A DNA stretch of 8,931 nucleotides. It comes from Bacillota bacterium (GTDB taxonomy: Bacteria > Bacillota > Bacilli > Alicyclobacillales > SLC66). The notes beneath the pieces are model-generated. The model did no database searches. It saw only the letters and a program-made list of their open reading frames with translations, and was not told where the DNA came from. The position numbers and the translations under genes were made by a program. The stretch is from contig JAKADD010000084.1 of assembly GCA_021820825.1 (NCBI GenBank), positions 1 to 8,931 of the forward strand, in the 5' to 3' direction. Numbering within the stretch: the stretch's first letter is position 1; every line of letters starts with the position of its first letter. Below, piece by piece: positions 318 to 4,265 of the stretch.

Positions 318-1634
318 TTAATTGCCGCTCAGTTGACTGTTCGCCTGTTTCTCAGCGTTTTGCATCGTGCTGGCCACCGGCTGCCGCAGATCGAAAACGC
401 CCTGCAACGCATTCTGCACATACTGTAAAATACTCAGATACTGCGGCGAAGGCGGCGCCGCGTGCTGGAATTTCAACTCCGCGAGCGCAGTGGCAAACTG
501 CGGATGCGCACGCAGATACGCCTTATAGGAAGGAACGTTGAGCACGCTCTTTTGCACCGGCACATAGCCCGTCATTTCCGACCAGTGAATGGTCTGCGCA
601 GCGGCCGTCCACCACTGGATAAATGTCCACGCCGCCGTTTGCTGCGCCGCCGGCGTACCGGCAAGAATCACGGCGTCGCCTCCCCCTGGAGGCACCGCGC
701 GCAGGACATCCGCCGGAAACATGGCTGTGCCCCACTGAAAACTATGCCCCACACCGCTGGCCACCTCGCCAGAATCGCCGATCGAATCGATGTCCATGGC
801 GACCTGTCCGTGAATAAACGCCTGGGTTGTTTCCGTCCAATACTGCGGTCCTGTCTGCACTTCGGCGTAGCCCTGTTTGAGCAGCGTCTGCTCCATGCTG
901 ATAATGCGCGTGGCGGCAGGGCTTGCAAACTCAGCCTGACTTAGATTTTTGGACAGAATATGGCCGCCGCCTGACCATACCGAAGCTTCCCAGGGCCACC
1001 AGTCTACGAGCGGCTCAAACCCATAGACTTTGCTATGGCCGGATCCTTTTGTGAGTTTCTTCGCATCCACCATCAACTGCGCCCAGGTCGCAGGAGGAGC
1101 GGCAATGCGCGCTTTGGCAAACAGCGTTTTATTATAGTACAGCACAGGCACGCTGCGGTTAAAGGGAACGCCGTAGTAGACGCCCTTGTACTGCGTGCTG
1201 ACAAGCATCCCAGTCAGGAAGTCGCCCGGCTTGTCCGCCTTGCTCGCCATCATGAGATGCGTCAGCGGGAGCAGCCGGCCAGCCGCTGCAAATACGGGCA
1301 TCGAGTGCACTTCCATCTGCGCCACATCCGGCGCATCGCCGGCGCGAATCGCCGCCAGCAATTTTTGCTGCTCCGGGCCGCCTCCAGAATAGCTGCCCTG
1401 GTATGTCGCCGTGACGTGAATCCCAGGATGTGTCGCGTTGAATTGCTTCACCAGCAGTTGCACATCGTTCCCCAGTTGGCCGCCCAGTCCATACCAGAAG
1501 GAAACCTGCACGGGCGCCTTGGATGACTTTTGCATGGCGGCGGCGCTTGGCAAGGAAGCCGCTCCGTCCACTGCCAGAAGCGCTGTCAACGCCAGCAATG
1601 TGGCGCCGAATTTCGTCTTTTTCTTTGCAAACAT
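318..1634 (-). CDS. ABC transporter substrate-binding protein, UgpB-like (family 1)
   Basis: 438 residues, the usual size for family 1 sugar/glycerol-3-phosphate binding proteins. A basic start (KKKTK, residues 4-8) and a hydrophobic stretch (about 10-22) form a signal peptide with a possible A-x-A cleavage site near residue 33. The mature part opens with VSFWYGLGG and then FNATHPGIHV and ATYQGSY, motifs typical of the UgpB group. It delivers solute to the two permeases encoded just upstream. A strong GGAGGT lies 8 nt before the ATG, consistent with high output of the last gene of the operon. Oddity: no lipobox cysteine is present, although Gram-positive binding proteins are normally lipid-anchored. 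The family is secure. Glycerol-3-phosphate (or a glycerophosphodiester) as ligand is inferred from the UgpB-like motifs and the neighbouring glpP; another sugar is possible. Confidence 0.9.
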   Translation of the reverse strand: MFAKKKTKFGATLLALTALLAVDGAASLPSAAAMQKSSKAPVQVSFWYGLGGQLGNDVQLLVKQFNATHPGIHVTATYQGSYSGGGPEQQKLLAAIRAGDAPDVAQMEVHSMPVFAAAGRLLPLTHLMMASKADKPGDFLTGMLVSTQYKGVYYGVPFNRSVPVLYYNKTLFAKARIAAPPATWAQLMVDAKKLTKGSGHSKVYGFEPLVDWWPWEASVWSGGGHILSKNLSQAEFASPAATRIISMEQTLLKQGYAEVQTGPQYWTETTQAFIHGQVAMDIDSIGDSGEVASGVGHSFQWGTAMFPADVLRAVPPGGGDAVILAGTPAAQQTAAWTFIQWWTAAAQTIHWSEMTGYVPVQKSVLNVPSYKAYLRAHPQFATALAELKFQHAAPPSPQYLSILQYVQNALQGVFDLRQPVASTMQNAEKQANSQLSGN

Positions 1635-1688: not shown

Positions 1689-2525
1689 CTACCCTTTGAC
1701 CGCCGAACTGGCGATCCCCCTGACGATAAACCGCTGGCCAAAGATAAAGATCAACACCACCGGAATGATCGTGAACAGGTCCGCCGCCATCATGAGATTC
1801 CATTGCAAATTGCTGCCGCCTTCCTGGCTGAGAAAGTACGACAGAGCGACCGGCAAGACGCGGACATTGGTCGAATTCGTCGCGACAAGCGGCCAGAACA
1901 GGCTGTTGTAATGCCATACAAAATTGAGCAGCGCCAGAGTGATCAGCGCTGGTTTTGTATTCGGCAGCACAATGGAGCGCAGGATGCGAAACTCCGAGGC
2001 GCCGTCAATTCTGGCGGCGGCAATCACCTCCTTGGGAACAGATACAAACCCTTGCCGCAACAGGAAAATGCCAAACGCGCTGCCAATGAAGGGCACGATC
2101 AGACCCTGATAGGTGTTGATGAAATGCACCTGACTCAGCATCAGATAGATGGGAATGAACGTGGCCTGCAAGGGCACCATCATGGCCAGCAGGATGACGA
2201 AGAAAAACGCTTTGCTCCCCGGAAAGGGGATGAAGACAAACGCATACGCAGCCAGACACGAGGTAATCAACTGGACAAAGACAATGGCAAAGTTCGTGAA
2301 CAGGCTGTTGAAAAAGAACAGGCCAAACGGTTGCGATGTCCAGGCGCGCACAAAATTGTTCCAGTGAAAGACTGTGGGAAACAGGTGCAGCGTAGGGCTG
2401 AAGATGGCCGACATCGGCGATATGGCGCTGACTGCCATCCAATAAACCGGAACCAGAACCCCGAGCGACACAATCACCAGGACCACGTGAGCAGCCAGGC
2501 GGGTGAGACGTCGTTTGGCAACCAT
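1689..2525 (-). CDS. ABC transporter permease, UgpE/MalG-like
   Basis: 278 residues with about six hydrophobic segments, the MalG/UgpE-type inner-membrane permease of a carbohydrate-type importer. The cytoplasmic EAA loop that docks the ATPase is visible as EVIAAARIDGASEFRILRSI followed by VLP. The ATG at 2525 is chosen because it overlaps the TAA of the upstream permease (TAATG), the usual translational coupling in such operons, and because the reading frame before it only repeats the end of that gene. It is followed after 54 nt by the binding protein. The motifs PTVFHWNNF and NSLFTNF near the N-terminus are typical of this subunit. No ATPase gene is nearby, so a shared MsmX/UgpC-type ATPase encoded elsewhere is inferred. 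Confidence 0.93.
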   Translation of the reverse strand: MVAKRRLTRLAAHVVLVIVSLGVLVPVYWMAVSAISPMSAIFSPTLHLFPTVFHWNNFVRAWTSQPFGLFFFNSLFTNFAIVFVQLITSCLAAYAFVFIPFPGSKAFFFVILLAMMVPLQATFIPIYLMLSQVHFINTYQGLIVPFIGSAFGIFLLRQGFVSVPKEVIAAARIDGASEFRILRSIVLPNTKPALITLALLNFVWHYNSLFWPLVATNSTNVRVLPVALSYFLSQEGGSNLQWNLMMAADLFTIIPVVLIFIFGQRFIVRGIASSAVKG

Positions 2526-3397
2526 TATTCTTCCACCACCCATCTGCGTCCGAGACGAACCTGCAACCATGTGAGAAGCGCCAGCAGAATCAGCAGCACC
2601 ATCGATGCGGCCGCCGCCGTGCCAATGTTGTACATCTGAAATCCTTCATTGTAAATATAGTAGACGAGGGTGGATGTGGATCCGTCCGGACCGCCCCCGG
2701 TCATCACATACACCTGATCAAAAATCTGAAATGCCTGGATTGTACAGATGACCAGCGCAAAGAACATACTCGGCGAAAGGGCGGGAAGCGTAACGTGCCA
2801 GAAGGTCTGACGATCATTCGCGCCGTCAATCGCCGCCGCCTCCTTGAGGGAGACGGATACGTTTTGCAAGCCGCCGAGAAAAATCAGCATATAGTATCCG
2901 AGATACTGCCAGACGGTCATGATCAGGACTGCCAGCAGTGCGAAACCACTTGTACCCAACCAGTTCGGACCATTTATATGGACCCACGAGAGCACTTGGT
3001 TGATGAGCCCGAAGTTCTGGTTATAGAGCAGCGTCCACACCAGCCCCGAGGCGACAAGCGGCAGTACGTACGGCCCGAACATCACGGTGCGGTAGATGCG
3101 GGTGCCGCGCAATCCCATATCGAGCAGCAGGGCCAGAAACAGTCCCAGAGGCAACAGAATGACAATCTGACCGACGCCAAGAATCAGGGTGTTGGACAGC
3201 GCCTGTTGAAAACTCTGTGACGCAAAGAGATGAACGTAGTTTCCCAGCCCGACAAACTGCGCATGGACATCGATCAGATTCCATCGCAGCAGACTCAAAA
3301 ACACCACGTAGCCCGCAGGAATGAACACAAACAGCGTCAACGCCGCCAACCCTGGCAGGATGAACAGCCAACCGGCCCATGCGCTGTGCAACAGCAA
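2525..3397 (-). CDS. ABC transporter permease, UgpA/MalF-like; start uncertain
   Basis: At least 290 residues with six predicted membrane segments, starting WLFILPGLAALTLFVFIPAG, the standard first helix of UgpA-type permeases. The EAA loop reads SLKEAAAIDGANDRQTFWHV then TLP. It pairs with the UgpE-like permease, to which it is coupled by a TAATG junction. The start is not clear. No ATG or GTG exists in frame between the stop TGA at 3416-3418 and the first helix. The coordinates given use TTG at 3397, which has no ribosome binding site at proper spacing. A better-spaced site, AAAGGA at 3420-3425, sits 7 nt before an in-frame ATC at 3412, which would add five residues (IIRNR) resembling the basic N-terminus of the family. 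A rare ATC start or a small sequence error are both possible. Confidence 0.9.
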   Translation of the reverse strand: MLLHSAWAGWLFILPGLAALTLFVFIPAGYVVFLSLLRWNLIDVHAQFVGLGNYVHLFASQSFQQALSNTLILGVGQIVILLPLGLFLALLLDMGLRGTRIYRTVMFGPYVLPLVASGLVWTLLYNQNFGLINQVLSWVHINGPNWLGTSGFALLAVLIMTVWQYLGYYMLIFLGGLQNVSVSLKEAAAIDGANDRQTFWHVTLPALSPSMFFALVICTIQAFQIFDQVYVMTGGGPDGSTSTLVYYIYNEGFQMYNIGTAAAASMVLLILLALLTWLQVRLGRRWVVEE

Positions 3398-3499
3398 CCG
3401 GTTTCTGATGATCGATCAGTCCTTTCAACGCCATATGCTCTACGCATGAACACGGCGGCAAGCATCAATCCACTCCTACAAAGCGATCCACTCCGCACC

Positions 3500-3550
3500 A
3501 AAAGACAAAATCCACCAAATGCTTTGCCCAGCGAGCAAAGAATCTAGTGG
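3500..3550 (-). terminator. Leader attenuator (intrinsic terminator) of the importer operon
   Basis: Read on the minus strand, CCACTAGAT pairs with ATTTGGTGG (9 bp including two G-U pairs). After one mismatch CTTTGC pairs with GCAAAG (6 bp) around a 7-nt loop, and the stem is followed directly by ATTTTGTCTTTT. This is a textbook intrinsic terminator. It lies downstream of the operon promoter (3602-3630) and upstream of the first permease, so it is an attenuator in the leader, not an end-of-gene terminator. In Bacillus, GlpP with glycerol-3-phosphate prevents termination at such leader terminators of glp genes. The gene encoding GlpP is immediately upstream here. The regulatory role is inferred; the hairpin and U-tract are directly visible. 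Confidence 0.8.
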
Positions 3551-3586
3551 TTCTCAAGTCTCTCACCAACGGATATTAACTTTGTA

Positions 3587-3600
3587 TGTGAACGCTTCCT
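3587..3600. promoter_or_regulatory. Candidate cre (CcpA) site
   Basis: TGTGAACGCTTCCT matches the cre consensus TGWNANCGNTNNCA at every fixed position except the last base. It would cover the transcription start predicted from the promoter at 3602-3630, a classic position for carbon catabolite repression. The consensus is degenerate, so chance matches occur, and no CcpA gene is visible in the window. Confidence 0.4.
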
Positions 3601-3625
3601 TAGCGTAAGTCTATTACGCTAAGAA
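3597..3625. promoter_or_regulatory. Operator-like inverted repeat over the importer promoter
   Basis: CTTAGCGTAA (3599-3608) and TTACGCTAAG (3614-3623) are perfect 10-bp inverted arms around GTCTA. Allowing one bulged base, the symmetry extends to CTTC at the left and GAAG at the right. There is no U-tract, so this is not a terminator. It occupies the spacer and -10 of the predicted promoter, the place where a repressor would bind. The regulator is not identified and no repressor gene is adjacent. Confidence 0.65.
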
Positions 3626-3630
3626 GTCAA
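3602..3630 (-). promoter_or_regulatory. Promoter of the ABC importer operon
   Basis: On the minus strand TTGACT (3630-3625) is followed after exactly 17 nt by TACGCT (3607-3602). The -35 is strong (5/6) and the -10 weak (3/6), as expected of an activated or regulated promoter. The predicted start near 3595 gives a leader of about 180 nt that contains the terminator at 3500-3550. Two direct copies of AAAACAGCA (3660-3652 and 3647-3639, 13 bp apart) lie upstream of the -35 and could be an A-rich UP-like element or an activator site. Confidence 0.55.
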
Positions 3631-3716
3631 GTATTTCGTGCTGTTTTGTCATGCTGTTTTTTGCTATTCCGCTATGGAGTTGTTTTAGCCATCTCTTTGG
3701 ACGTTTCCATGCGCGA

Positions 3717-4265
3717 TCAATAGTTCAGTTTCCACAGTTTTTCTGCGGAAGTGGAGATCGCACATGCGCCGCATTCAAGGATGCGGCGCAAATCGTCCTC
3801 CGTCTGAATGAAGCCGCCCGCAATGATGGGTACTTGGGTGCGCTCTGCAACTTCCTGAATGATACCCGGCATGATTCCGGGAAGCACTTCGATAAAATCC
3901 GGACGGGATGCGCCCACAACCCGGAAACTTGTCTCCAGCGAGTGCGAGTCAAGCAGAAACACGCGTTGAATCGAGATGAGAGAATGCTTCTTGGCCATCG
4001 CAATTACGGCCGAATGTGTGGAAATGATCCCCGCCGGTTTGATCACCTGACACAGAAATTGCGCCCCGCTCTCGTCATGTTTCAACCCCTGCACCAGATC
4101 GGCGTGCAGCAGCACCTTTTTGCCGTGACGTTGCGCAAGACCAACCAGCACATGCAACTGAGCGAGACGCGTTTCCAGCAGCACGATGTACTCGTGCCTG
4201 AAAGCCATCATGCGTTCCAGGTCCTTCACGCTTCGCGCCGCCGGCAGAATGACTTGATTCAACAA
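3717..4265 (-). CDS. glpP: Glycerol-3-phosphate-responsive antiterminator GlpP
   Basis: 182 residues, close to the roughly 190 of Bacillus GlpP, and recognisable along its length. Seen here: NQVILPAARSVKDLE (3-17), EYIVLLETRLAQL (25-37), HGKKVLLHADLVQGLKHDE (47-65), GIISTHSAVIAMAKK (79-93), IQRVFLLDS (99-107), DFIEVLPGIMPGII (123-136) and VPIIAGGFIQTEDD (145-158). The fold is expected to be a TIM barrel that binds glycerol-3-phosphate. Family knowledge: with ligand bound, GlpP acts on leader mRNA to allow read-through of terminators and stabilise glp transcripts. The start chosen is TTG at 4265, with GAGAGG 6 nt upstream; it gives MLNQVILPA, aligning with the Bacillus N-terminus. Upstream codons in frame are not conserved. 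It follows the oxidoreductase by 56 nt on the same strand and precedes the importer operon, its likely target. Confidence 0.92.
   Translation of the reverse strand: MLNQVILPAARSVKDLERMMAFRHEYIVLLETRLAQLHVLVGLAQRHGKKVLLHADLVQGLKHDESGAQFLCQVIKPAGIISTHSAVIAMAKKHSLISIQRVFLLDSHSLETSFRVVGASRPDFIEVLPGIMPGIIQEVAERTQVPIIAGGFIQTEDDLRRILECGACAISTSAEKLWKLNY

Follow-up and report, generated by a model that had tools for sequence, protein, structure and literature searches.

A predicted GlpP-type antitermination leader upstream of Ugp-type ABC importer genes in Bacillota

The DNA analysed in this work is a stretch of 8,931 nucleotides from a Bacillota bacterium (contig JAKADD010000084.1; hereafter, the window). 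A leader at positions 3586–3503, lying between glpP and the genes of a Ugp-type ABC importer, is likely (roughly 80%) to be a GlpP-type antitermination switch in which an antiterminator held by GlpP bound to glycerol-3-phosphate (G3P) would form part of a positive loop. According to this model, predicted from the sequence, a strong hairpin would stop transcription near position 3500 in the absence of G3P; in its presence, GlpP, encoded just upstream, would bind twin GAGA boxes and stabilise a weak hairpin in which the bases 5' of box 1 are paired with the start of the 5' arm of the terminator. With the weak hairpin held, the terminator would be blocked and ugpA-E-B transcribed; the importer, in turn, would take up G3P or a glycerophosphodiester, yielding more G3P. 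This reading draws on the element itself, its likeness to the leaders of glpP loci, the covariation of its terminator, a family-wide complementarity between the segments flanking the boxes, and the gene order, all of which were obtained by computation.

On the minus strand, the order is glpP, a promoter-like site, the leader with its terminator, and the ugpA-, ugpE-, and ugpB-like genes, the window ending 317 nt past the last of these (Table 1). A previous sequence-only reading had placed glpP directly upstream of Ugp-type importer genes, in agreement with the PF04309 match and with the best NCBIfam models of the three importer proteins; its estimate of about 180 nt for the leader is also close to the 185–200 nt separating the assumed transcript start (about 3597) from the ugpA start codon. 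The solved relatives of the window GlpP are 3kts and 1vkf.

Table 1. Position of the features of the window and basis of their assignment.
Feature	Positions	Strand	Basis
glpP, G3P-responsive antiterminator protein	3717..4265	-	PF04309, E 8.2e-61; TTG start at 4265 assumed
UgpA-like permease	2525..3397	-	Best NCBIfam model; start codon uncertain, 3412 or 3397
UgpE-like permease	1689..2570	-	Best NCBIfam model
UgpB-like solute-binding protein	318..1634	-	Best NCBIfam model
GlpP-type leader element, whole model match	3503..3586	-	Model R2, 28.5 bits, E 8.6e-5 in 37 kb
Conserved AAGTTAATAT	3573..3582	-	Sequence and alignments
Box 1, GAGA	3561..3564	-	Sequence and alignments
Box 2, GAGA	3552..3555	-	Sequence and alignments
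Terminator stem-loop	3512..3550	-	Fold; base helix covaries across the family
U-rich tail ATTTTGTCTTTT	3500..3511	-	Sequence
Proposed antiterminator hairpin	3548..3568	-	Loop containing both boxes, closed by UGGU (3568-3565) and ACCA (3551-3548); -2.5 kcal/mol
Promoter-like site TTGACT-17-TACGCT	3602..3630	-	Consensus match only; -10 poor
cre-like site AAGGAAGCGTTCACA	3587..3601	-	One mismatch relative to the cre consensus

The arms of the terminator hairpin, CCACTAGATTCTTTGC and GCAAAGCATTTGGTGG, enclose a 7-nt loop, form 15 of 16 pairs by reading, and are followed by ATTTTGTCTTTT down to position 3500. The terminator segment folds at -21.2 kcal/mol; the folding z-score of the region 3600–3398 is -3.16, none of 200 shuffles being equally stable. 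These data bear out the 15-bp stem and U-tract described in the earlier reading. A simple terminator scan did not include the 3550–3512 site in its list; since it returned 14 terminator-like sites versus 9.4 expected, it provides no evidence for or against the hairpin. Rfam gave no match in the window leader at E ≤ 1 and none in 12 loci.

All four ugp leaders of the window clade (the window and its relatives L001–L003) harbor TTGACT, a 17-nt spacer, and a -10 hexamer ending 14–15 nt 5' of the element; L002 and L003 have a better -10 than the window (TTGACT-17-TATAGT). The site of the window was absent from the list of the simple scan. Inside it, a perfect 9-bp inverted repeat was observed at 3600–3624 (CTTAGCGTA, 7 nt, TACGCTAAG); since none occurs at the equivalent place in L001–L003, it may be due to chance. 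Moreover, a cre-like site with one mismatch lies at the promoter in the window, L002, and L003, and is missing from L001 (three mismatches). Such sites were found in 75 of 204 upstream regions, versus two of 105 regions further upstream and five of 204 shuffled ones. The site at the putative promoter of the window suggests catabolite repression, presumably by CcpA.

Searching genome contigs for GlpP retrieved five loci, from three Bacillota MAGs and two Alicyclobacillus genomes. The former (L001–L003, 90–92% identical) share the gene order of the window; in the latter, glpF or glpK follows the leader. The sequence AAGTTNAT, the GAGA boxes, and the terminator are common to the seven leaders of the five GlpP loci and the window. 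Further elements were collected by a fuzzy motif search in 30 Bacilli glpP loci plus L004 and L005, and 22 elements were aligned with MAFFT (alignment A2). In this alignment, the base helix of the terminator is 92.3% paired, with double changes at eight of the ten pairs, versus at most 51.4% for slid versions; in 121 model-fitted rows, the pairing rises to 96.0%, with double changes at all ten. The comparison of relatives for covarying stems, proposed together with the earlier reading, thus turned out in its favor as far as the terminator base is concerned. Pattern matches without the full element (e.g., G001:C245, G002:C79, and G003:C45) were set aside.

Two models of the element were used. 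Since the ugp leaders went into model R1, the R1 scores of the window are not independent evidence. Model R2 was built from 18 motif-chosen rows from glpP-bearing loci whose downstream genes were not all called, with the window and L001–L003 excluded; the score of the window leader (28.5 bits) is the lowest among the four ugp leaders, those of L001–L003 ranging from 31.1 to 38.4 bits. When the whole genomes of the fragmented MAGs G001–G003 were scanned (150 of 268–295 first-look candidates scored per MAG), R2 retrieved one match each at E ≤ 5, namely, the ugp leader (E 2.4e-3, 5.6e-5, and 5.1e-4, respectively); their glpK loci gave no R1 match. The genomes G004 and G005 (150 of 192–353 candidates scored per genome) yielded four and five R2 matches, three and four of which exceed 37 bits.

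Under stricter filters, with which weak matches are lost, R2 matched at E ≤ 0.01 in 200 out of 398 Bacilli genomes, and R1 matched at E ≤ 0.02 in 38 out of 398 genomes of a phylum sample; in eight loci read from the latter, the next gene codes for a GlpA-like FAD-dependent dehydrogenase (named by reading). The element goes with glpP across Bacilli: assuming that all 299 genomes searched for GlpP are among the 398 searched with R2, it is present in 152 of the 219 with GlpP over the cut-off versus one of the 80 others (none of 13 with a weak GlpP match and one of 67 with none). At 123 loci (119 distinct), the reference gene coming first in the 450 nt past the element was glpF (53), glpD (40), glpK (six), ugpA (four, L055 and L132 being one place), dhaK (three), or glpP (one); the remaining 16 were unclassified and include GlpT-like, GDPD, and MFS genes (named by reading translations). 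These tallies are rough, since the rule for assigning the strand was fuzzy and the 16 unclassified loci include several misoriented ones.

Some single loci are worth recording. Elements precede dhaK, coding for dihydroxyacetone kinase, in L004 (5608–5685, minus strand), L005 (5715–5800, minus strand), and L136 (1785–1858); in G053, an element (L237, 10712–10799, minus strand) stands before a gene for a 684-residue PAS-type-regulator-like protein, upstream of dhaK. In G281, the element (L234, 2038–2117) lies directly 5' of an MFS-type transporter gene (named by reading). Finally, G085, in which PF04309 gave no match at E ≤ 0.001, has an element before glpD (L258, 1501–1583, minus strand).

The connection between leader and ugp genes was probably made twice. 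In G098, a leader scoring 47.5 bits precedes a ugpC-A-E-B set (ATPase, two permeases, and binding protein, the ATPase being named by reading), a GDPD gene (also named by reading) is divergent from the leader, and glpP is located on another contig. The binding protein of this genome has E. coli UgpB as its best solved relative (4.3e-63) and is 24% identical to that of the window. Its wiring is probably an event independent of that of the window clade. The idea that a GlpP switch has been wired to an ABC importer, advanced in the sequence-only reading, gains support from the match to a model lacking ugp leaders, from the covarying terminator base, from the association of the element with glpP, and from the same wiring in G098.

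Scanning 30 UgpA loci from the order with R2 revealed the element in two, L064 and L065, which belong to the window clade; the other 28 are without it. L080 and L081 (ugpA in G210 and G304) harbor a leader terminator with GAGA-like boxes, possibly a diverged GlpP element; neither R1 nor R2 matched them, and they were left out of the ugp-leader count. The MAG G003 possesses a second ugpA-E-B set (L188, 3847–6924), 91–92% identical to that of the window and without the leader element, which may reflect a strain mixture or a duplication. The E. coli Ugp importer is under phosphate-starvation control. Pho-box-like direct repeats occur 5' of ugpA relatives in five of the 30 loci (L066, L068, L071, L074, and L079; 0.3% in shuffled sequences), hinting at phosphate control of those genes.

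As to the folding step, we considered the segment U, consisting of the ten nucleotides before box 1 and the first G of box 1, and the segment D, consisting of the nine nucleotides after box 2. Out of 246 element rows, 20 failing the box rule were removed, and the 226 kept comprise 94 nonredundant elements, with L002 as the only one of the four window-clade ugp leaders; smaller sets had been tested first. The U-D duplex energy was 4.58 versus 3.63 (sd 0.16) with D swapped, the swapped value equaling or exceeding the original one in none of 5000 trials, while the control with D reversed gave six of 5000. For the stem score, the corresponding counts out of 5000 were zero with D swapped, 13 with D reversed, 1417 with U shifted, and 4658 with D shifted. 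For the 48 elements having no CCAC in D, the mean rank of the element's own U by duplex energy was 0.344 (p 0.0002); the reversed-D control was weakly raised (rank 0.420, p 0.039), which points to some family effect. Swaps were also carried out within three author-assigned groups, i.e., the order of G001 (31 elements), the remainder of the Bacilli search (53), and elements reached through the phylum sample only (ten); the counts were 7, 1, and 3 of 3000, versus 190, 75, and 266 of 3000 for the reversed controls. The equal-register classes large enough to test displayed no excess of U-D pairing, implying that the evidence resides in the register and in rare variants.

These data bear on the statement, made from the sequence alone, that no clear competing antiterminator hairpin exists. 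This is probably wrong: in all three groups, pairing between the bases just 5' of box 1 and the beginning of the terminator arm exceeds that of the swapped controls. The related suggestion that the mechanism may rely on GlpP binding alone fares little better, since a short antiterminator pairing is favored family-wide and binding is, thus, probably not the whole mechanism. Still, GlpP occupying the single-stranded GAGA boxes might block the terminator by itself, making an antiterminator hairpin unnecessary, and several data would fit: the UGGU-ACCA pairing of the window is weak (-2.5 versus -21.2 kcal/mol for the terminator), U and D pair over only 1–2 bp in ten of the 94 elements, and no excess emerges within equal-register classes. 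The swap counts, both overall and within the three groups, and long matched variants such as L311 (9 bp) and L244 (7 bp) argue against it, so that we regard it as possible but unlikely. In 94 out of 94 elements, the terminator is more stable than the antiterminator, as a default-off switch would require. Much harder to maintain is the view that an unregulated intrinsic terminator, serving to end glpP transcripts, accounts for the hairpin and that the ugp genes use a downstream start. The terminator is strong, and one placed after glpP would be ordinary, but the element 5' of it is conserved with the glpF, glpK, and glpD leaders and tracks glpP, and a promoter-like site lies 5' of the element in all four clade members; we consider this view very improbable.

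A GlpP switch might also control an importer whose cargo is a sugar or another compound. The three proteins miss the NCBIfam equivalog cut-offs (166.6 of 335 bits for UgpA, 165.9 of 297 for UgpE, and 113 of 411 for UgpB), and the single-sequence best PDB matches of the window UgpB are 7c0y-type binding proteins. Furthermore, according to the contact residues named in PMC12718374, the window protein has a gap in place of the Arg that contacts the hydroxyls of glycerol, as have the Alicyclobacillus-type proteins, whereas G098 retains this residue; the other glycerol contacts, Glu and Gly, are kept, and one residue of the Trp pair is aligned. On the other hand, the four phosphate contacts (two Tyr and two Ser: Y82, S161, S284, and Y357, from the mapping of alignment A7 and HMMER alignments) are kept, the family profile has E. 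coli UgpB as its best match (7.5e-66), and a GDPD gene follows ugpB in G001 and in five of 13 other ugp loci (L177, L183, L187, L190, and L191), L188 being cut just after ugpB. A different cargo is therefore rather unlikely. The whole order in G001 is glpP, leader, ugpA, ugpE, ugpB, GDPD, and a GlpD-like gene (37.7% identical to Alicyclobacillus GlpD). The importer substrate is probably G3P or a glycerophosphodiester, the two ligands originally proposed; the neighbors of ugpB in G001 and the phosphate contacts speak for this proposal, and the missing Arg, which speaks against it, makes a glycerophosphodiester as likely as G3P. No gene for the ATPase UgpC was found in the window. The signal region of the window UgpB-like protein (1634–318) lacks a lipobox cysteine; this residue is also missing in L001, L176, L178, and L191 and is present in L177, L182, L183, L187, and L233.

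PMC9604022 names the promoters of glpD, glpT, and glpFK as those on which GlpP acts in B. subtilis; the 5' UTR of these targets contains an inherent terminator as well as a GlpP site, and CcpA controls PglpFK. The window resembles these systems in glpP, in the terminator-bearing leader, and in the downstream G3P metabolism, with a cre-like site here and CcpA there; it differs in the target, which is an ABC importer here and the GlpF facilitator, GlpT, GlpK, or GlpD there. The review PMC7430163 states that G3P-bound GlpP binds the antiterminator; the term is, thus, not new. The RAT antiterminators of LicT, SacY, and GlcT, treated in the same review, are alike in mechanism only, the proposed weak hairpin being exclusive with the terminator and stabilised by a ligand-gated protein; the regulator here is a PF04309 protein, not a BglG-family one with PRD domains, and the boxes and loop differ. 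With E. coli UgpBAEC (solved UgpB 4aq4) the window shares homologous permeases and binding protein, and GDPD adjoins in several relatives, whereas scores under the equivalog cut-offs, the lack of an ATPase gene, and the GlpP-type leader set it apart.

In PMC3750489, Table 1 places GlpABC among the transporters in the GlpP glycerol row. The open-access papers searched, in which the first glpD leader studies (Glatz, Holmberg, and Rutberg) appear as references only, contained no GlpP antiterminator structure or covariation; no link of GlpP with a ugp leader or an ABC importer was found in the open-access papers searched. GlpP antitermination is known; a new type of target, the ABC importer, and family-wide evidence for the folding step are added here.

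As for GlpP leaders in general, we lean towards a scheme in which a conserved short antiterminator, with the two GAGA boxes in its loop, would be clamped by GlpP-G3P in a RAT-like manner by an unrelated protein, and in which it would have become linked, in at least two lineages, to a Ugp importer replacing GlpT. This allows one to predict a possible induction of Ugp-type importers by G3P and offers a testable structure for the way GlpP may override termination.
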